64,000 nucleotides of DNA from Thioalkalivibrio sp. ALJ21 (lineage in GTDB: Bacteria; Pseudomonadota; Gammaproteobacteria; Ectothiorhodospirales; Ectothiorhodospiraceae). The translations under genes were made by a program, and so were the position numbers. Where the stretch lies: NCBI RefSeq assembly GCF_000378605.1, contig NZ_KB905155.1, positions 310,001 to 374,000 on the forward strand, in the 5' to 3' direction. The notes under the pieces were generated by a model, which searched no databases, was not told the origin of the DNA, and saw only the letters and a list, made by a program, of their open reading frames with translations. Of the stretch, positions 25,330 through 36,868 are shown piece by piece (positions within the stretch are counted from its first letter, which is position 1; each line of letters begins with the position of its first letter).

Positions 25330-25773
25330 TCAGGCGCGGGAGTCCCCGGACACCGCGGCATCTCCGGAGCGTCCGTCCGGACGGTTCGGGTCGAAGCGCT
25401 CGCGCAGGTATTCGCCGATCGCATCCGACTCGTACAGCCAGCGTACCTGGCCGTCCGGCTCCTCAATGCGCAGGCAGGGCACTTGCAGCTTGCCGCCCTC
25501 GGTCTGCAGCTCCTCGCGGTGCGGGCCGGCCGCCTGGGCATTGCGCAACTCGATGTCCAGCGACAGCCGCTGCATGGTACGGCGGGCGCGGATGCAGAAC
25601 GGGCAGGCCGGGAAATGATACAGCGCGAGGTGGCGCGTCTGTTCGTCAACGCGGGCCTGGTCGGCGGGGTCGCGCTCGATGCCGCGCGGTCGCGACAGAC
25701 GCTCGCCAATCAGCATGAATGGGGTGAGGATCAGGCGTACGCCGCGAAAAAACCATCGGATCAGAAATCGCAT
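25330..25773 (-). CDS. Glutaredoxin/GST-N-domain thiol protein
   Basis: 147 aa. The N-terminus is hydrophobic and basic (MRFLIRWFFRGVRLILTPFM), a possible membrane anchor. A thioredoxin-fold domain follows with active site ACPFCIRARRTMQRL and cis-Pro region LQVPCLRIEEPDG, then SDAIGEYLRERF, typical of the glutathione S-transferase N-terminal/glutaredoxin fold. CPFC suggests thiol-disulfide exchange with glutathione. ATG 25773 is preferred over 25833, which falls in the spacer of the next gene. Confidence 0.85.
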   Translation of the reverse strand: MRFLIRWFFRGVRLILTPFMLIGERLSRPRGIERDPADQARVDEQTRHLALYHFPACPFCIRARRTMQRLSLDIELRNAQAAGPHREELQTEGGKLQVPCLRIEEPDGQVRWLYESDAIGEYLRERFDPNRPDGRSGDAAVSGDSRA

Positions 25774-25834
25774 GCGCGAAAGGATGCCACAAGCCCGCCG
25801 GTGGGTGACAGAGCCCGCATCGGGCGTGCGCACG

Positions 25835-26491: not shown

Positions 26492-27214
26492 CTAGTGACG
26501 ATCCCCCGTGGCCTCGGCTGCCATCTGGTCGTAACTGGTGTGGCGGACGTTCTTGCCCTTTACGAAATACACCACGTACTCGCAGATATTGCGCGCGCGG
26601 TCACCGATACGCTCCAGCGAGCGGGTCGCCCAGACGATATCCATCAGGCGTGGCACCGCATCGGGGGAGGCGGTCATCTGTTTCATCAGCTTGTGCGTGA
26701 TGGCCTCGTAGAGGCTGTCGATCTGGATGTCCTGCTGTGCGACTCGCACCGCCTGCTCGGTGTCCATGCGCGCGAACGCATCGAGCACGCCGCGCGTCAT
26801 CTCGCGCACGAGCTGGCCCATCTTCGCGATCTCGTCCATCGGTGCCTCGCGGCGGTCGGAGTCCAGCAGTTGCAAGCCCATGCGGCCCACACGCTCGGCC
26901 TCGTCGCCCATGCGTTCCAGGTCGGTGATGGTCTTGATCACCGCGATCACCAGACGCAGGTCGGAGGCCGTGGGCTGGCGACGGGCGAGGATGTGGGTGC
27001 ATTCCTCGTCGATCTCGACCTCGAGCGCGTTGACCTTGTAGTCGGAGGTCATCACGGTTTCCGCCAGTGCGGTGTCGCCCTCGACCATCGCGGTCACCGC
27101 ATCGCCGAGCTGCTGCTCGACCAGGCCGCCCATGGTCATCACCTTTTTGATGATGTCCTCCAGCTCGGCATTGAACTGCTGGGAGATGTGCTGCTTGAAA
27201 AAGCTCTTGTCCAT
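26492..27214 (-). CDS. phoU: Phosphate-signalling protein PhoU
   Basis: 240 aa, all-helical, two PhoU repeats. KVNALEVEIDEECTHILARR and ITDLERMGDEAERVGRMGLQ are the metal-binding E/DxxxD-type motifs of the first and second bundles; SLERIGDRARNICEYVVYFV is the C-terminal one. It links Pst transport to PhoR and restrains the Pho regulon when phosphate is ample. Last gene of the leftward pst operon, 26 bp after pstB. Confidence 0.97.
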   Translation of the reverse strand: MDKSFFKQHISQQFNAELEDIIKKVMTMGGLVEQQLGDAVTAMVEGDTALAETVMTSDYKVNALEVEIDEECTHILARRQPTASDLRLVIAVIKTITDLERMGDEAERVGRMGLQLLDSDRREAPMDEIAKMGQLVREMTRGVLDAFARMDTEQAVRVAQQDIQIDSLYEAITHKLMKQMTASPDAVPRLMDIVWATRSLERIGDRARNICEYVVYFVKGKNVRHTSYDQMAAEATGDRH

Positions 27215-27240: not shown

Positions 27241-28071
27241 CTAACCGAAGCGGCCGGTGATGTAATCCTCGGTCTGCTTCTTGGCAGGCGAGGTGAACAG
27301 GGTGTCGGTGTCGGCGTATTCGATCAGCTCGCCCATGTACATAAAGGCGGTGTAGTCGGACACGCGCGCGGCCTGTTGCATGTTGTGGGTGACGATGACC
27401 AGCGTGTAGTCCTTCTTCAGCTCGATCATCAGCTCCTCGATCTTAAGCGTGGCCAGCGGGTCGAGCGCGGAGCAGGGCTCGTCCAGCAGCAGGACCTCGG
27501 GGTCGATCGCTATCGCACGGGCGATCACCAGACGCTGCTGCTGACCGCCGGACAGGCCAAAGGCGTTCTCGTGCAGGCGATCCTTGACCTCGTCCCACAG
27601 CGCGGCACGCTTGAGCGACTTTTCCACCACCTCGTCCAGGCGTCGGCGATTCTTGACGCCCTGCAGCCGCAGGCCGTAGGCCACGTTCTCGTAGATGGAC
27701 TTCGGGAACGGGTTGGGCTTCTGGAACACCATGCCGACGCGGCGGCGCAGCTCCGGCACGTCCACGGCCTTTTCGTAGATGTCGTCGCCGTCGAGCCGGA
27801 TCGTCCCCTCGATGCGGGCGGCATCGATCAGGTCGTTCATGCGGTTGAAGCAGCGCAGGAACGTCGATTTCCCGCAGCCGGAGGGGCCGATGAACGCCGT
27901 GATCCGGTTCTTCGGGATCTGGATGTCGATGCCCTTAAGGGCCTGATCCTCGCCATAGAACAGCTTCAGGTCCTCGGCGGTTAGGCAGATCTCCTCGCTG
28001 GAGAGCCGCAGGCCGCGGTCGGGTCGGTCGCCTTGCGTCACGTTGACGGCGTGGGTAGCGGTGTCACTCAT
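27241..28071 (-). CDS. pstB: Phosphate ABC transporter ATPase PstB
   Basis: 276 aa. Walker A is [19 protein letters not shown], the signature is [16 protein letters not shown], and Walker B is [13 protein letters not shown], all in PstB form. An N-terminal extension of about 25 residues precedes the core. It is separated from pstA by 217 bp carrying a palindromic repeat element. Confidence 0.97.
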
Positions 28072-28288: not shown

Positions 28289-29956
28289 TCAATCGCTGTC
28301 GGCGCGGTATTTCTCGCGCAGGTAGTTGCGGATCGAGATCGCGGTCAGGTTGAGCACGATGATCAGCATCACCAGCACCAGGGCGGTGGCGTAGACCAGC
28401 GGGCGGCCGGCCTCGACGTTCGGGCTCTGGAAGCCGACGTCGAAGATATGGAAGCCCAGGTGCATGAACGCACGGTCCAGGTGCAGATAGGGGAAGTTGC
28501 CATCCAGCGGCAGGGTCGGCGCCAGCTTGACCACGCCGACCAGCATCAGCGGCGCCACCTCGCCCGCGGCACGCGCCACCGCCAGGATCAGCCCGGTCAT
28601 CATCGCCGGGGCCGACAGCGGCACGATCAGGCGCCACAGGGTCTCGGCCTTGGTCGCGCCCAGTGCCAGCGAGCCGTGACGGATGCTGGCGCCGATCCGG
28701 GTCAGGCCTTCCTCGGTGGAGACGATCACAACGGGCAGCGTCAGCAGCGCGAGCGTCAACGAGGCCCAGATAATCGCGGGCGAGCCGAAGGTTGGCGAGG
28801 GCAGGGCGTCGCGGAAGAAGATCTGGTCGATGTTGCCGCCAATCAGGTAGACGAAGAACCCAAGCCCGAACACACCGAACACGATCGACGGGACCCCGGC
28901 GAGGTTGTTGACGGAGATGCGGATGGTGCGCACCAGCGGTCCCTGCTTCGCGTATTCGCGCAGGTAGATCGCGGCGAGCACGCCGAACGGGGTCACCACG
29001 ATGGACATCAGGATAACCATCAGCACGGTGCCGAAGATCGCCGGCAGGATGCCGCCCTCGGTGTTCGCCTCGCGCGGGTAGCCGGTCATGAAGTCCCAGA
29101 AGGCGACGACATAGTGGCGTAACTTGGCCGGCACGCTCATGTCGTTTGGCCACCAGGCGTTCACGATGCGCGAGAGCGGGATCGTCGCGTGTTCCCCGTC
29201 GGCGGTCTCCAGCACGATCGCAAAGCGGCCCAATTCGTCACGCAGGGCGTTGCGTTCGGCCTCGAGTTCGGCGTAGCGGGCGTCGAGTTCCTCGCGTTCG
29301 GCGTCCAGTTCCTCCTGGCGCTGGCCGCGTTCTTCCAGCGACAGCTCTTCGGCACGCTCCACGCCGCGCTGGGCGATGCGCAGGCGCTCGAGCTCGAAGT
29401 TCACCCGTCCGATCTCGATACGCTCGATGCGCTCGATCTGCTGAACCAGCTCGCGGGTCTGCGGCATGCGTTCCTCGAACGCGGTTCGCGCCTCGCCACC
29501 CTCGGCGACCGTTTCGCCGTCTTCTTGGTATTCCCGGATGTAGCCGTAGAAATCGCCCCACTGCAGACGCTCCAGCACCACCACGTCGCGCGGGCGTTCC
29601 CATTCGGACATGAAGTCGTCCAGGTACCACTGGAAGTCGCGGCTGTCGAGGTCACGGTTGCCACGCTTGATCAGGTGGCGGACCACGATGTCCTGGCCTT
29701 CCGGCACGGTGAAGCCGGCGTCGCGCATGGCCTGGGCGGTCATGGTCTCGGAGCGCTGCAGCTCGCCCATGACGCGTCGGGGCTCGGAGTCCTGCTCGGT
29801 CTGGTATTCGAATTCGATGACCTCGGAGGGCCAGAAGAAGGACAGACCGTTCACGGCGATCATCAGGATCAGGCCGAAGACCATCACCAGTGAGGCAGCG
29901 ACCGCTCCGGCATTCAGCCAGATCCACGGGGTGCCGGATTTGAACCAATGATTCAT
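28289..29956 (-). CDS. pstA: Phosphate ABC transporter permease PstA, long form
   Basis: 555 aa, against about 300 for E. coli PstA. One transmembrane helix near residues 15-40 is followed by a periplasmic domain (about 45-265, the DUF3333-type extension) containing a charged coiled coil (ERGQRQEELDAEREELDARY). The permease core follows from about 300 with GVLAAIYLREYAKQ, ASLTLALLTLPVVIVSTEEG (EAA-loop region) and PLSAPAMMTGLILAVARAAG. It overlaps no gene and starts 10 bp after pstC. Membrane partner of PstC. Confidence 0.95.
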   Translation of the reverse strand: MNHWFKSGTPWIWLNAGAVAASLVMVFGLILMIAVNGLSFFWPSEVIEFEYQTEQDSEPRRVMGELQRSETMTAQAMRDAGFTVPEGQDIVVRHLIKRGNRDLDSRDFQWYLDDFMSEWERPRDVVVLERLQWGDFYGYIREYQEDGETVAEGGEARTAFEERMPQTRELVQQIERIERIEIGRVNFELERLRIAQRGVERAEELSLEERGQRQEELDAEREELDARYAELEAERNALRDELGRFAIVLETADGEHATIPLSRIVNAWWPNDMSVPAKLRHYVVAFWDFMTGYPREANTEGGILPAIFGTVLMVILMSIVVTPFGVLAAIYLREYAKQGPLVRTIRISVNNLAGVPSIVFGVFGLGFFVYLIGGNIDQIFFRDALPSPTFGSPAIIWASLTLALLTLPVVIVSTEEGLTRIGASIRHGSLALGATKAETLWRLIVPLSAPAMMTGLILAVARAAGEVAPLMLVGVVKLAPTLPLDGNFPYLHLDRAFMHLGFHIFDVGFQSPNVEAGRPLVYATALVLVMLIIVLNLTAISIRNYLREKYRADSD

Positions 29957-29966
29957 CGCTTATGCC

Positions 29967-32237
29967 TCAAAGGGAGCTGTATTTCTGGCGCAGGCGCTGG
30001 CGCACGATCTCGGCGACCGTGTTTACCGCAAAGGTCAGCGCGAACAGGACCAGGGCGGCCAGGAACAGGATGCGGAAATGGGTGCTGCCGACGGCGGCCT
30101 CCGGCATCTCCACCGCGATGTTCGCGGAGAGCGTGCGCATGCCCTCGAAAATGTTGAAGTTGACCACCGGCGAGTTGCCGGTGGCCATCAGTACAATCAT
30201 GGTCTCGCCCACCGCGCGGCCGAAGCCGATCATCACCGCCGAGAAAATCCCGGGGCTGGCGGTCAGCAGCACTACGCGCACCACCGTCTGCCACGGGGTG
30301 GCGCCCAGGGCCAGCGAGCCCTGGGTCAGGTGCTTGGGCACGTTGAAGACCGCGTCCTCGGAGATCGAGTAGATGGTCGGGATGACCGCGAAGCCCATCG
30401 CGATGCCGATCACGAGCGCATTGCGCTGGTCATAGGTGATGCCCTGGTCGGTCAGCCACTGGCGGGCATCTCCACTGAACATCCAGACCTCGATCAGCGG
30501 GCTCATGGACACGGAGAACCAGCCGATGGCCAGAATCACGGGGATCAGGATCGCGGCTTCCCAGCCAGCGGGTACGAGGTTGCGCAGGCTCTCCGGCAGC
30601 GCCCGTGTCCACAGAAACGCGGCGACCAGCATGCCCAGCGGCATCAGGATCAGGATGCTGGCGATCGCCGGCAGGTTGGCCTCGATGAAGGGGGCCAGCC
30701 ACAGCCCGGCGAGGAAGCCGAGGATGACAGTCGGCAGCGCCTCCATCAGCTCGATCGAGGGCTTGGTGATGCTGCGCATGCGCCGCGACATGAAATAGGC
30801 ACTGTAGATCGCCCCCATGATCGCCAGCGGGGTGGCGAACAGCATCGCGTAGAAGGCGGCCTTGATGGTGCCGATGGTCAGCGGCACCAGCGAGAATTTT
30901 GGCTCGAACTCGTCGGTGGCCGAGGACGACTGCCAGACATAGTCGCCCCCGGAGCGGCCCTCGTACCAGACCTTCTGCCACAGCACGTGGAAGGAGACCT
31001 CCGGGTGCGGATTGGACAGATCCTGCAGATGCCAGGTCTCGTGATCGTCGATGCCGATCAGCAGGCGGTTGCGCGGGTCGACATACACCCGGTGCAGCGG
31101 CTGGTCGGTGATCTGGCGTTCGATCAGGGTCCGCTGCGAGGTGGAGTAGTGGATCTTGACCTCGCCGCGGTCGTCGGCGGTCAGGAAGCCCTTGCGGATG
31201 TACTCCGGCTGGGTGTTGCGGATCGGGCCGGCATGCGACGGGAAATCGCGCACCCGGGTGATGCGGTTCACGTTGTCGTCGTCGCGTACCAGCATGTACT
31301 GAGCGACCGTGCCGTCGGAGCCCCCGACGATAATCGATACCGTGCCCAGCAGATACTCCAGCGAGGTTACCTCGGCATCATCGCCGCGGATCACGCGCTT
31401 GCTGTCGACCAGGCTGGCGCGTGAGGGGTTGTTGATGTCGAAGAAATGCAGCTGCCCCTGGTCGTCGCCGACCAGCATGTGGCGGCCGGTGATATCCAGC
31501 AGAATGCGAGTCGGCGTGGCGCCATCCGGGAGCGAGGGCAGGTCGTAGGCCGACCGTCGGACCTCGGTCTCGCCGGTCATCATCGAGGTGCGTTCCTCGA
31601 AGCGAACGAGAACGAGATTGCCGTCTTCCGTTGCGGCTGCGACGCGGATGCCGCTGGAGCCGCGCTGTATCCCAACCACCGAGATCGCGCGGCCGTCGTC
31701 GTCCACGTCCAGCAGCGCGGAGTCTTCGTCCCCCAGGGGGTACACCAGGCTCGGGTTGTACAGACGGCCTTCGGGACTGAAACGCTCGTTGTATTCGTAC
31801 TCGATGGCCAGTACCTGCCCGTTGTCCAGGCCCGCGGCCACCAGGCGCGTGCGCGGCTCGGCCGCGCTGAAGCTGGTGACCTGCACATCCTCCGGGATCG
31901 GTAGCGACTCTTCTTTCACGATGTCGCCGCTGTAGGGGCGGAAGAAGAGGGCGCGTCGGTCTTCGGTCAGGCGCACCGCCATCTCGCGATGGCGGTTCAC
32001 CGCCAGGTGGATGGTCTGCGTGTCGGCGCCGCCTGGAGCCGCGTATTCAGTGCGCGGCTCCAGGGTCGCGCCCTGGAACATGGGCAGTGTCTCGCTGGCG
32101 AGATACACGAACATCAGGGTCAGTGCACCAACCACGGCCACACCGAAAAAGCCGATGGTGTAACGGGCGGTGCGGTCCTTGGTGCGACGCCAGCGCTGGA
32201 AGCGGCCGAGCGTCGAGGTGGCGGAGAGGCTGGACAT
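29967..32237 (-). CDS. pstC: Phosphate ABC transporter permease PstC, long form
   Basis: 756 aa, about 440 longer than E. coli PstC. After one transmembrane segment (FFGVAVVGALTLMFVYLAS) comes a periplasmic region of about 400 residues with repeated beta-rich, propeller-like units (for example GRHMLVGDDQGQLHFFDINN and VRDFPSHAGPIRNTQPEYIR). The permease core follows (LSGDARQW... region, ALPTVILGFLAGLWLAPFIE, QGSLALGATPWQTVVRVVLL, GFGRAVGETMIVLMATG). The extended PstC and PstA domains may contact each other in the periplasm. It has its own Pho-box promoter. Confidence 0.95.
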   Translation of the reverse strand: MSSLSATSTLGRFQRWRRTKDRTARYTIGFFGVAVVGALTLMFVYLASETLPMFQGATLEPRTEYAAPGGADTQTIHLAVNRHREMAVRLTEDRRALFFRPYSGDIVKEESLPIPEDVQVTSFSAAEPRTRLVAAGLDNGQVLAIEYEYNERFSPEGRLYNPSLVYPLGDEDSALLDVDDDGRAISVVGIQRGSSGIRVAAATEDGNLVLVRFEERTSMMTGETEVRRSAYDLPSLPDGATPTRILLDITGRHMLVGDDQGQLHFFDINNPSRASLVDSKRVIRGDDAEVTSLEYLLGTVSIIVGGSDGTVAQYMLVRDDDNVNRITRVRDFPSHAGPIRNTQPEYIRKGFLTADDRGEVKIHYSTSQRTLIERQITDQPLHRVYVDPRNRLLIGIDDHETWHLQDLSNPHPEVSFHVLWQKVWYEGRSGGDYVWQSSSATDEFEPKFSLVPLTIGTIKAAFYAMLFATPLAIMGAIYSAYFMSRRMRSITKPSIELMEALPTVILGFLAGLWLAPFIEANLPAIASILILMPLGMLVAAFLWTRALPESLRNLVPAGWEAAILIPVILAIGWFSVSMSPLIEVWMFSGDARQWLTDQGITYDQRNALVIGIAMGFAVIPTIYSISEDAVFNVPKHLTQGSLALGATPWQTVVRVVLLTASPGIFSAVMIGFGRAVGETMIVLMATGNSPVVNFNIFEGMRTLSANIAVEMPEAAVGSTHFRILFLAALVLFALTFAVNTVAEIVRQRLRQKYSSL

Positions 32238-32445: not shown

Positions 32446-33420
32446 TTATTCCAGACCGAGGTTCTTGCGCTCGCGTTCGGCCACGGCGGCCGGCAGCGGG
32501 ATGAACCCGTCACGCACCACGACTTCCTGGCCTTCCTTCGACAGCACCATCTTCAGGAACTCGGCCGCGCGCGGGGTCAGACCGTCTTCCGGGTGCTTGT
32601 TGACCATCACGTACAGGAAGCGGGCCAGCGGGTAGTCGCCGGAGGAGGCGTTGTCCGCGTTCGGCTCGTAGTACTCGCCCTCATTCTCGCCCAGCGGGAC
32701 AGCGCGCACGCCCGAGGTCATGTAGCCGATGCCGGAGTAGCCGATACCGTTCAGCGACTCGGAAACACCCTGGACCACGGAGGCGGAGCCGGGCTGTTCG
32801 TTGACCGAATCCTTGAAGTCCCCGTCGCACAGGGCGTGCTGGCGGAAGAAGCCATAGGTGCCGGAAACCGCGTTACGGCTGTAGAGCGTAATGTCGCGGC
32901 TTTCCCAGGAACCATCCAGGCCGACTTGACCCCAGCGGGTGATGTCCTCGGCCCCACCGCAGCGGCGGGTGGACGAGAAGATCGAATCGACCTGTTCGAT
33001 GGTGAGGCCCTCGATCGGGTTGTCGCGGTTTACGTACACCGCGATGGTGTCGATCGCGACCGGGACGGCGGTCATTTCGTAGCCGTGGCGCTCTTCGAAC
33101 TCGGCGTGCTCGCTGTCGCGCGGCATGCGCGACATCGGGCCGAAGTCGGCGGTGCCTTCGGTCAGGGCCGGCGGCGCGGTGGAGGTGCCGGCGCCCTGAA
33201 TCTGGACATTGACGTTCGGGTAGAAGTTCTGGAACTCCTCGGCCCACAGCGTCATCAGATTGTTCAGGGTGTCGGAGCCGATGCTCGACAGGTTGCCGGA
33301 AATCCCGGAGACCGCCTCGTAGGCCGGGATGTCGGCATCGACTTCGGCGGAGACGGTAAACGGCGTAACGGCCATTGCAGTGGCGGTGGCCAGGGCCAGA
33401 ATGCTGCGCTTCAACAACAT
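32446..33420 (-). CDS. pstS: Phosphate-binding periplasmic protein PstS
   Basis: 324 aa from ATG 33420, with GGGGAG upstream. The signal peptide ([20 protein letters not shown]) is followed by [40 protein letters not shown] (phosphate-binding loop) and [19 protein letters not shown]. It resembles the PstS-like binding proteins of the SphX/PstS2 type. A longer in-frame start at 33534 runs into the promoter and is rejected. Confidence 0.95.
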
Positions 33421-33478
33421 GGGAATCTCCCCTTGAATGGAATTCTTGCAAGGACGCTTCAAGCGACCTTGGTGGGGG

Positions 33479-33533
33479 ATTATGCGCAGCCGGGTTGACG
33501 CTCCTGTGACGGGGACATGACAGCCGTGTGACA
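33479..33533 (-). promoter_or_regulatory. Pho-box promoter of pstS
   Basis: Half-sites on + at 11-bp steps: TTGACG (33495), GTGACG (33506), ATGACA (33517), GTGACA (33528), i.e. two tandem PhoB boxes in the leftward direction. The -10 candidate CATAAT (33479-33484) is 10 bp downstream of the last half-site. The pstS start is 58 bp further. Confidence 0.93.
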
Positions 33534-33543
33534 TCGCACGGCG

Positions 33544-34866
33544 TCAGTTTTTTGCTGACTCGATGGGTTTGGTGCGGGTGATCGAGAGGGGGAACAGGCA
33601 GGTGAAGCGTGTGCCGCGTCCGACCTGGCTGTCGATCTCCAGGTGTCCGCCATGACGCGCGAGGACATGCTTGACGATGGCCAGTCCGAGCCCGGTCCCG
33701 CCGCGGCGCTGGTCACGGCCGGCATCCACCCGGTAGAAGCGCTCGGTCAGGCGGTGCAGGTGATGGCGGGCGATCCCCGGCCCCTCGTCGACCACACTCA
33801 GGCGGGCCCCGTCCGGGTCGGATTGCCAGCGAACCTCGATACGGGTCCCGGCCGGGGTGTACTTGATCGCATTGAACAACAGATTGGCGAAGGCCGAGCG
33901 TAGTTCGTTCTCGGCGCCTCGCAACTCGAGCCCGGCCTGGGTGTGAATCTCGATGCGGTGGCGCTGATCGCCGGAGAGCAGGTCCGCCTCGCCCTTCAGC
34001 GTCTGCAGCAGCGTGCCGACGTCGACCCATTGTGGCGGGCCCTGCGGGCTGCCGGTCTCCAGGCGGGAGAGGGTCAGCAGGTCGTCGACCAGCAGCTTCA
34101 TGCGTTCGGACTGCTCGCGCAGCAGCTGGACCGAGCGTGCCTTGTCCGGCTGGTCGGCCAGCTCGTCTTCCAGCGTCTCCACCACCCCGTAGAGTACGGT
34201 CAACGGCGTGCGCAGTTCGTGCGAAACATTCGCAATGAAGTCGCGCCGCATCACTTCCAGCCGGTGCAGGTGCGTGGTGTCCCGCGCCAGCAGCAGGAAT
34301 TGCGCATCGCCATAGGGCACCAGACGGAACTCCAGCTGCTGGTCGTCGTGCAGCGGGGAGGGCGTGGTCACGCTGCCCGGCGTAGTGCGCGCGCTCTCCA
34401 TAAATGCGATGAAGGCCGGATTGCGCAGCAGGTGGGTAATGCGCTGGCCCTCGTCCTCCGGCCAGTTCAGTCCCAGCAGCTGGGTGGCCATCTCGTTCAG
34501 CCATTCGATGCGCAGATCGTCATTCAGAACCACGACCGCGTCCGGCATCGCCCGGGCCGAGTCGCGATAGCGCTCGAGGTACTGGCGCAGCCGGTGCACG
34601 CGATGTTCGTGGCGCCGACGGCGGCGGTAAAGATGGTCGAAGGCCAGCCCCCAAAGCCCGCGCACATCCGGTGGTTCGCTGCGGCCGCCCTGACGCAGCC
34701 AGCGTTCCAGCAACAACAGGTGCGAGAGGTTCCAGAACAGCGCCGCCCCCAGCAGGAACGCAATCGTGGCCCAGAACTGCCCCATGCTCCAGCCGAGCAG
34801 CGCGATCGGGACACCGACCAGCAGGGTTCCCGCGATGACACCGGGCCAGGGGTTGCGTGATTGCAT
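33544..34866 (-). CDS. phoR: Phosphate-regulon sensor histidine kinase PhoR
   Basis: 440 aa. Two N-terminal transmembrane helices (GVIAGTLLVGVPIALLG and FWATIAFLLGAALFWNLSHL) precede a basic linker, then a PAS domain (DAVVVLNDDLRIEWLNEMAT). The H box is RDFIANVSHELRTPLTVLYG; ATPase motifs are NAIKYTPAGTRIEV, VVDEGPGIARHHL and RGGTGLGLAIVKHVLARHGG. Little periplasmic sequence lies between the helices, as in classical PhoR, which senses phosphate through Pst and PhoU. 45 bp downstream of phoB. Confidence 0.96.
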   Translation of the reverse strand: MQSRNPWPGVIAGTLLVGVPIALLGWSMGQFWATIAFLLGAALFWNLSHLLLLERWLRQGGRSEPPDVRGLWGLAFDHLYRRRRRHEHRVHRLRQYLERYRDSARAMPDAVVVLNDDLRIEWLNEMATQLLGLNWPEDEGQRITHLLRNPAFIAFMESARTTPGSVTTPSPLHDDQQLEFRLVPYGDAQFLLLARDTTHLHRLEVMRRDFIANVSHELRTPLTVLYGVVETLEDELADQPDKARSVQLLREQSERMKLLVDDLLTLSRLETGSPQGPPQWVDVGTLLQTLKGEADLLSGDQRHRIEIHTQAGLELRGAENELRSAFANLLFNAIKYTPAGTRIEVRWQSDPDGARLSVVDEGPGIARHHLHRLTERFYRVDAGRDQRRGGTGLGLAIVKHVLARHGGHLEIDSQVGRGTRFTCLFPLSITRTKPIESAKN

Positions 34867-34911: not shown

Positions 34912-35601
34912 TCAGGGAGTCTGCGAGAAACGGTACCCCGATCCGCGTACGGTTTGCACGAGGTGGTCATGCCCGGTCAGCGCCAGCGCCTTGCGCAGGC
35001 GCCGGATATGCACGTCCACAGTGCGTTCCTCGACGTACACATTGGTGCCCCAGACCTGATCGAGCAACTGGCCGCGGGTGAATACGCGGTCCTGGTGGGT
35101 CATGAAGAAGTGCAGGAGGTTGTATTCGGTCGGGCCCATCGACAGTGCCTCGCCGTTCCCGCTCACGCGGTGCGAGACCGGGTCCAGGCGCAGACCCTCG
35201 ACCTCCACCGGCTCTTCGCTGGTGATCGGCGCGGTACGCCGTAGCACCGCCTTGATGCGCGCAACCAGTTCGCGTGGCGAGAACGGTTTGGTCACGTAGT
35301 CGTCGGCACCCACATCCAGCCCGCGCACGCGGTCTTCTTCTTCGCCGCGGGCCGTCAGCATGATGATCGGGATGTCCTTGGTGATCGGGCTGGCCTTCAG
35401 CGTGCGCGCCCAGTCGAGACCGCTGGTGTCCGGCAGCATCCAGTCGAGCAGGATCAGATCGGGGGGATCTTCCAGAAGCAACGCCTTGGCTGTGCGCACA
35501 TCGCCCGCCTCGCGCACCGCGTATCCGGCCTTGTGCAGCGGCAGCTGGAGCATTTCGCGGATTGCGGTGTCATCCTCGACCAGCAGTATTTTCACAGCCA
35601 T
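34912..35601 (-). CDS. phoB: Phosphate-regulon response regulator PhoB
   Basis: 229 aa OmpR/PhoB-type regulator. The receiver domain starts [20 protein letters not shown]; the phospho-acceptor Asp is in [20 protein letters not shown]. The winged-helix domain contains [20 protein letters not shown] and the DNA-binding stretch [18 protein letters not shown]. It activates Pho-box promoters, three of which lie in this window, including its own. Confidence 0.97.
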
Positions 35602-35706: not shown

Positions 35707-36510
35707 CTACCCGGCCTTGAGGGCCCTGTTCTGGGCGTGCAGTTCGAACCGTTCGGAGCCCTCGAGCAGGACCATACGGCTGGCATGCCGCGACTGCTGG
35801 AGTTGGTGGCGGATGGCCAGTTCGTGCCCGGGTTTCAAGTGCGTGATGGCGATCCGTGGCTGGTGATGGAGCGCATCCAGGTCATCCGCGAGGCGGTGCG
35901 GGGTGTAATGCTTGGCGAGATCGGCCATGCCGTCCATTTCGTCCGGCAGCCCCGACTCGATCATCAGCAGATCCAGGTAGGGCAGCGCGTTCAAGGCCGC
36001 CCACAGGGCCTCGGACGACGACGTGTCCCCAGTGAAGGCAAAGCCCATGCCGTCGCTGTGCATCACGCCGTAGCCGATGGCGGGTACCGTGTGCAAGGCG
36101 GGCAGGGTACGGATCTCGCGCAAACCGATGGTGACCTGCTGATCCGGCCGGATCGGTCGAAACTGCAGCAGCGGTTGCTCGGGAGACGGGAGACAGGTGA
36201 AGTCGGGCCAGATGACCCAGTTGAACACATGCTCGCGCAGGGCCTTCAGGGTGGCCGGTAGCGCGTGGATCTGGATGGGGGGCGCATTCGGTGAATACAC
36301 CATGTCCGCGAGCATCGGCAGAAAACCGATGTGGTCGAGGTGCGAATGGGTCAGAAATACGTGACGGATTTTTTGTAATTCGTCCAAGGTCAGGTCGCCG
36401 ACCCCACTGCCGGCGTCGATCAGGATATCTTCGTCGATCAGAATCGATGTCGTGCGACGGTTGGGGCCGATGCCGCCACTAGCGCCCAATATGCGGACAG
36501 AGAGACTCAT
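35707..36510 (-). CDS. Metallo-beta-lactamase-fold hydrolase, class II cyclic phosphodiesterase-like
   Basis: 267 aa from ATG 36510. The metal motif is HVFLTHSHLDHIGFLPMLAD, in the H-x-H-L-D-H form of class II cAMP phosphodiesterases. Other ligands are in MGFAFTGDTSSSEALWAALN and ITHLKPGHE. These support a dinuclear-metal hydrolase acting on a cyclic nucleotide or similar phosphodiester. The N-terminus MSLSVRILGASGGIGPNRRT is a complete first beta strand, so the longer in-frame start at 36753 is rejected. It lies upstream of phoB on the same strand, separated by the phoB promoter. Confidence 0.82.
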   Translation of the reverse strand: MSLSVRILGASGGIGPNRRTTSILIDEDILIDAGSGVGDLTLDELQKIRHVFLTHSHLDHIGFLPMLADMVYSPNAPPIQIHALPATLKALREHVFNWVIWPDFTCLPSPEQPLLQFRPIRPDQQVTIGLREIRTLPALHTVPAIGYGVMHSDGMGFAFTGDTSSSEALWAALNALPYLDLLMIESGLPDEMDGMADLAKHYTPHRLADDLDALHHQPRIAITHLKPGHELAIRHQLQQSRHASRMVLLEGSERFELHAQNRALKAG

Positions 36511-36868
36511 GCGGGATCTGACTGCAAATGAAAATTGTGAATATCTCGGCAGACCATGCGGCAGAGACGCCTCCTTGAAGAGACGGTAGCTACGACGGAT
36601 TTCCGACGTACTTCTAACATACGTTAAGACTAGAGCAAGTCTAAGCGTGTCTGACGTGACCTGCACCACGAAAATGGCACCTGTGGTCGCGCAACGGCTG
36701 AAAAAGGTGCTAGGCATCGCGTTTTCCGCCCGGTTCCGGGCCCGTGCTGACACCCGGGATGGGTTCAGTCACGTCGCCTGGTCAGCCCGGGCAGGGGCGA
36801 CAGGGCAGAGATCGCGCGTCTGTCTCTTCCCGCGCTCGTCGGGAGTTGCTAGAATGCGCGCCTTGATT
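36511..36868. other. Gene-free spacer of 358 bp with the tRNA promoter region
   Basis: No supported coding sequence. Visible items are an inverted repeat AGACT-N6-AGTCT (36627-36642) in the likely promoter region of the leftward metallo-hydrolase gene, and a -10 candidate TAGAAT (36850-36855) with a GCGCGCC stretch after it, suitable for a stringently controlled tRNA promoter. No clear -35 box was found. Confidence 0.6.

Follow-up and report, generated by a model that had tools for sequence, protein, structure and literature searches.

A stretch of 64,000 nucleotides from Thioalkalivibrio sp. ALJ21 (contig NZ_KB905155.1, positions 310,001 to 374,000; hereafter the window) encodes a Pst phosphate importer whose two permeases, PstC and PstA, both carry a large insert after the first transmembrane helix (TM1). 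The PstC insert is confidently predicted to be a seven-bladed WD40-type beta-propeller, and the PstA insert is modelled as a beta domain bearing a coiled-coil hairpin. This long Pst is a common and widespread gammaproteobacterial subtype of PstSCAB. Bacteria take up phosphate with high affinity mainly through Pst, which also provides the input to the Pho regulon. We propose, with a probability of roughly 0.45, that the inserts serve as an accessory docking collar for the phosphate-binding protein PstS and are kept where the long system is the sole Pst. The two permease genes, identified as open reading frames (ORFs), and their parts in the AlphaFold2 (AF2) models are as follows (aa, amino acids).

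29967 to 32237, minus strand: pstC, phosphate ABC permease with the propeller insert, 756 aa (TIGR02138, 202.8 bits; cut-off 196.45)
31014 to 32069, minus strand: PstC residues 57-408, seven-bladed WD40-type beta-propeller, periplasmic, between TM1 and TM2 (28 strands in the AF2 model; Foldseek; VIA)
30891 to 31013, minus strand: PstC residues 409-449, junction between propeller and TM2, the best conserved stretch of the insert
30438 to 30677, minus strand: PstC residues 521-600, extra transmembrane hairpin in the permease core (AF2 helices 522-546 and 560-577)
28289 to 29956, minus strand: pstA, phosphate ABC permease with the beta domain and coiled-coil insert, 555 aa (TIGR00974, 234 bits; cut-off 193.45)
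29501 to 29824, minus strand: PstA residues 45-152, periplasmic beta domain, first half (AF2)
29228 to 29500, minus strand: PstA residues 153-243, antiparallel coiled-coil hairpin (AF2; matches to coiled coils only)
29093 to 29227, minus strand: PstA residues 244-288, periplasmic beta domain, second half, leading to TM2 (AF2)

In PstC, the Pfam permease family PF00528 covers residues 473-750 only, and about 390 extra residues lie in the loop after TM1. For the AF2 models, the two window proteins were supplemented by 57 and 50 relatives. The PstC model shows a helix at 6-54 (TM1), strands at 58-408 and TM2 at 450-481, and the predicted local distance difference test (pLDDT) is about 84-96 by blocks over residues 61-410. 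A Foldseek search with the propeller model returned WD40 proteins as top matches (best: eIF3i, 3zwl; E = 5.9e-15), and VIA superposition gave Z scores up to 28.5 over 296 residues. Seven four-stranded blades of the predicted model thus superpose on solved WD40 domains. The fold is shared with the propellers of eIF3i, Ski8 and Ciao1 (Z 26-28.5), but sequence identity is about 8-15% among the matches listed, and the PstC propeller sits in a permease loop. Against the WD40 families of Pfam, the insert gave sub-threshold matches only (best: PF23414, 20.5 bits against a cut-off of 90). The extra transmembrane hairpin, which the first-pass annotation of the window had overlooked, spans at least 80 aligned residues in the operons measured (see below). 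It is found in the long Pst clade, even in forms that lack a propeller, and the medium Pst class described below has a gap at this place.

In PstA, PF00528 covers residues 323-550 only, Pfam gave nothing of note for the remainder, and about 240 extra residues lie in the loop after TM1. The model shows a helix at 9-41 (TM1), the insert at about 45-291 and TM2 at 303-338; the permease core was poorly modelled. Residues 45-290 form a beta domain broken by helices 154-201 and 207-242, with pLDDT about 80-95. Foldseek with this insert found nothing better than E = 0.35, and the VIA matches were chiefly to coiled coils, SMC and Rad50 among them, with Z reaching 10.7. The combination of a beta part and an antiparallel helical hairpin resembles membrane fusion proteins such as MacA, AcrA and EmrA. 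However, VIA aligned only the hairpin of MacA and EmrA (Z 6.9-8.2; MacA 8.2 over 79 residues), no better than SMC and Rad50, and no Foldseek match was significant; this identity was therefore not adopted. Neither the PstC nor the PstA insert reaches the cut-off of any Pfam family. No description of the two inserts was found in the literature within our reach, which mostly excludes subscription journals.

The first-pass annotation, made from the DNA letters, had described about 400 extra, propeller-like residues in PstC and about 200 extra residues with a coiled coil in PstA, both at the same topological place after the first transmembrane helix. The models bear out this description, and in both proteins TM1 is directly followed by the insert. 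Because the N-termini of both permeases are rich in Arg and Lys, the positive-inside rule would place both inserts on the periplasmic side.

Three Pst architectures, short, medium and long, were seen when 20 further operons were read, one of which (L274) was long. Short pairs have PstC of 320-341 aa and PstA of 285-296 aa. The permease cores of E. coli PstSCAB (PDB 9k3s, 9k3x and 9k3y) align with those of the window, but the solved PstC (319 aa) and PstA (296 aa) have no space for the propeller, the coil or the extra transmembrane hairpin. With 756 and 555 aa, the window proteins are not of this short E. coli type. Medium pairs have PstC of 405-506 aa and PstA of 385-458 aa (complete genes with a plausible start only). 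Like the long form, the medium form has homologous permease cores and extensions in both permeases, that of PstA also after TM1. Unlike the long form, its PstC extension is N-terminal and rich in hydrophobic stretches. The sole medium pair scored (L270) matched PF12501 (DUF3708, 103.8 bits) and PF11812 (DUF3333, 171.6 bits). DUF3708 and DUF3333 correlate with each other and are prevalent in Alphaproteobacteria, according to a metagenome study (PMC3597751). We rejected an identity of the long inserts with these domains: PF12501 gave no match to the window PstC at E up to 1, PF11812 gave none to the window PstA, a profile comparison of long and medium PstA inserts produced no alignment, and long and medium PstC aligned in the core alone.

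The two inserts largely travel together. Among the 47 genomes of the order sample, 39 have the PstC insert and 38 the PstA insert. When only genomes at least 90% complete are considered (n = 38), 36 have both and two have neither, and the pairing is therefore not due to chance. In the phylum sample (299 genomes), the PstC insert was found in 48 genomes, the PstA insert in 51 and both in 47, all within the class of the window. The hidden Markov model searches were discordant in five of these genomes, with PstC only in G264 and PstA only in G280, G096, G132 and G306. Reading of the operons showed that G264 and G280 are long in both genes and that the other three discordances are real. In the class sample, long-clade PstC occurs in 127 of 379 gammaproteobacterial genomes and in 101 of 268 genera. 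Its frames are full-size except in G096 (380 aa), G191 (367 aa), G456 (split) and G578 (882 aa). In G456 the long PstC (locus L372) lies in two frames of 591 and 172 aa; the break, either real or a sequencing error, is at the core. Among 80 titled loci, many of them from Pseudomonas, Stutzerimonas, Methylobacter and Marinomonas, complete pairs were present in 72. Both inserts were full in all 72 of these named operons, and an origin as annotation or frame artefacts was rejected.

In total, 220 operons were measured (221 minus the split L372), of which 54 belong to one family, f11, and 166 lie outside it. Eleven of 120 loci were left out, ten cut by contig ends or lacking a complete PstA or PstC, and L370 just below the 200-bit limit; L370 was judged by eye, and L188 and L288 had no pair. 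The two halves of the PstA beta domain were present in all 220 operons. All 166 operons outside f11 retained the propeller at 343-449 aligned residues and the coil at 60-96, the coil being shorter than 80 residues in four. Divergent long Pst systems with a shorter coil (60-71 residues) were seen outside f11 in L132, L133, L274 and L371, and the first three form the deepest branches of the midpoint-rooted tree.

Family f11 is different. Its sample comprises 81 genomes, 54 of them with long-clade PstC; the 54 measured operons come from 51 genomes, with G349, G366 and G416 left out. Propeller and coil were both full in 20 of the 54. A full propeller was combined with a short coil in three operons and with no coil in six, a half propeller with a short coil in nine and with no coil in two. 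Seven operons without a propeller had a short coil and seven had none. The first-pass annotation had suggested that the paired extensions could form a periplasmic platform for PstS or a phosphate sensor, and had named an independent distribution of the two among genomes as the result that would refute it. Co-occurrence holds for every operon measured outside f11. Within f11 it breaks down, since the coil-less full propellers and the propeller-less coils are separate losses. Propeller and coil are therefore separable and do not form one obligate unit or platform. A further loss of both, separate from f11 and read by eye, was found in G191 (family f20), which also has a second Pst, of the short type.

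The half propellers examined kept strand 1 and strands 14-28, and most of strands 2-13 were gone, as if three blades had been excised. Judged from these sequences, propeller loss in f11 apparently proceeds three blades at a time, from seven to four to none. The propellers of L325, L326, L337, L341 and L343, composed of strand 1 and strands 14-28 and probably of four blades, may represent a natural four-bladed derivative of the WD40 fold. When the permease cores were joined and placed in a tree by a quick method without bootstrap, 39 f11 operons, including all those lacking the propeller or the coil, formed one group with starred support. For the tree as a whole, the propeller state required three changes and the coil state six.

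These losses accompany a second Pst. All 31 f11 operons that lack the coil or have lost at least half of the propeller are in genomes having another PstC. In 28 cases this second PstC is of the medium class (its frame is only 166 aa in G096 and contains a stop in G411), and in three (G354, G389 and G400) it belongs to a second, full-size long operon. In each of these three genomes (L364, L365 and L366 with L326, L329 and L330), the full-size operon is nearer to the group of the window in the tree, and the other has a half propeller and a short coil. Conversely, all 12 f11 genomes with a single Pst, a status confirmed by TIGR02138, have full-size PstC frames of 760-802 aa, and the ten that were measured are full in both inserts. 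When the window's genome was searched with the medium PstC class, it matched only its own PstC and PstA; the window operon is thus, as far as the searches go, the sole Pst of the genome. The f11 pattern suggests maintenance of the inserts by selection in single-Pst cells. Propeller and coil seem to be dispensable for the persistence of the permease, and selection seems to keep them where the long system is the sole Pst.

The same pattern bears on the idea that the inserts are of old origin, came down with the operon as nearly neutral ornaments and are lost or retained by drift. The weak conservation of the propeller body and the stepwise loss in f11 would agree with drift. However, near full length in every operon measured outside f11, full PstC frames in every single-Pst f11 genome, and the conservation of the junction and of one propeller face make this explanation improbable.

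Conservation scores, weighted over 181 full operons, located the constrained parts. In PstC, the junction at 409-449 scored 0.748 against 0.391 for the propeller, 0.795 and 0.85 for the core parts and 0.527 for the extra transmembrane hairpin. In PstA, the beta halves scored 0.45 and 0.479, the coil 0.422 and the core 0.856. With faces assigned from strand order, the propeller loops on the entry and exit face of the chain scored 0.442 against 0.324 on the other face (p = 2e-4 when residues are the unit, 0.063 when loops are). This contrast was strongest in the C-terminal half of the propeller (0.503 against 0.343), and the half-size propellers retain this better conserved half. As the chain both enters and exits on this better conserved face, we infer that it points toward the membrane.

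WD40 propellers are usually protein-binding scaffolds. Together with the long hairpin in which the PstA insert ends, this would fit inserts that bind a partner other than PstS, such as the cell wall, a phosphatase of the periplasm or a phosphate porin in the outer membrane, and bring phosphate to the importer, with the coil reaching out and the propeller as scaffold. We consider such a partner unlikely, as conservation is higher on the propeller face at which the chain comes from and returns to the membrane. Nor is a partner gene known, a weak point given that only pst and pho genes were sought in the operons read.

The reading that we prefer places the PstC propeller and the PstA beta domain with its coil at the same site, where they would build a collar on the permease at which PstS docks. 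The beta domain would be the basal part of the collar, and the propeller and coil would be accessory arms that help to capture PstS or to couple it to transport and to PhoU/PhoR signalling. A contact between PstS and the inserts is suggested by analogy to the periplasmic P2 loop of MalF, a large loop through which the permease of an ABC importer touches its binding protein, although P2 is in another loop, has another fold and is found in a single subunit. In a more specific version, which we advance tentatively, the propeller and the PstA hairpin arm would be a built-in platform flanking the entry, to hold or gate PstS. It would be kept in cells with a sole Pst; once a second Pst takes over, it would be taken apart one module after another, three blades going as one group, which would leave a natural deletion series.

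Several points weigh against the docking collar. Conservation of the propeller body (0.391) is far below that of the permease core (about 0.8). The independent losses in f11 imply that propeller and coil need not contact each other. All f11 losses are in one clade, so that few events underlie the association with a second Pst. Finally, of the 42 f11 genomes that have a second Pst, 11 still possess a PstC frame of at least 685 aa (three of them with a short coil, and one, G349, unmeasured), and redundancy therefore permits loss but does not enforce it.

The remaining genes of the operon, which has the order phoB-phoR-pstS-pstC-pstA-pstB-phoU on the minus strand (ORFs and NCBIfam names) and is otherwise normal, are the following.

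34912 to 35601, minus strand: phoB-like response regulator (ORF adjoining phoR upstream; named from sequence and place)
33544 to 34866, minus strand: phoR sensor kinase (TIGR02966, 418.7 bits; cut-off 334.2)
32446 to 33534, minus strand: pstS, phosphate-binding protein, 362 aa (TIGR02136, 265.6 bits; cut-off 206.6)
27241 to 28071, minus strand: pstB ATPase (TIGR00972, 419.9 bits; cut-off 343.2)
26492 to 27214, minus strand: phoU (TIGR02135, 236.7 bits; cut-off 130.25)

PstC, PstA, PstB and PstS all score above curated cut-offs and are encoded in one operon with phoU, as in a Pst phosphate ABC importer. Two neighbours on the minus strand were named by eye: a small glutaredoxin-like protein with a CPFC motif (25330 to 25833) and, adjoining phoB, a hydrolase of the metallo-beta-lactamase fold (35707 to 36753).

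This gene context could suggest that the inserts tune signalling through Pst, PhoU and PhoR rather than uptake, by sensing the state of PstS or phosphate and shifting the conformation of the permease. Indeed, phoU lies beside 155 of 161 operons full in both inserts outside f11 (the window not counted) and beside 51 of 54 in f11. However, phoU is also kept in all 31 operons that have lost the propeller or the coil, and the long pstCAB genes of L147, L148 and L150 (family f9) have neither phoU nor pstS within the stretches fetched. PhoR is not known to have a periplasmic sensor domain. A role confined to signalling is therefore doubtful.

The long form concerns many bacteria. Its more than 600 extra periplasmic residues, which lie outside the Pfam models, are carried by one in three of the gammaproteobacterial genomes sampled and by many named pseudomonads, and the solved Pst structures found are of the short E. 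coli form. The PstC of Pseudomonas aeruginosa is presumably also of the long type. According to one study (PMC9769906), the PstA and PstC proteins of P. aeruginosa rise under phosphate limitation. With propellers of seven, four or no blades and coils that are full, short or absent, family f11 offers a ready natural deletion series in which the function of the inserts is directly testable.

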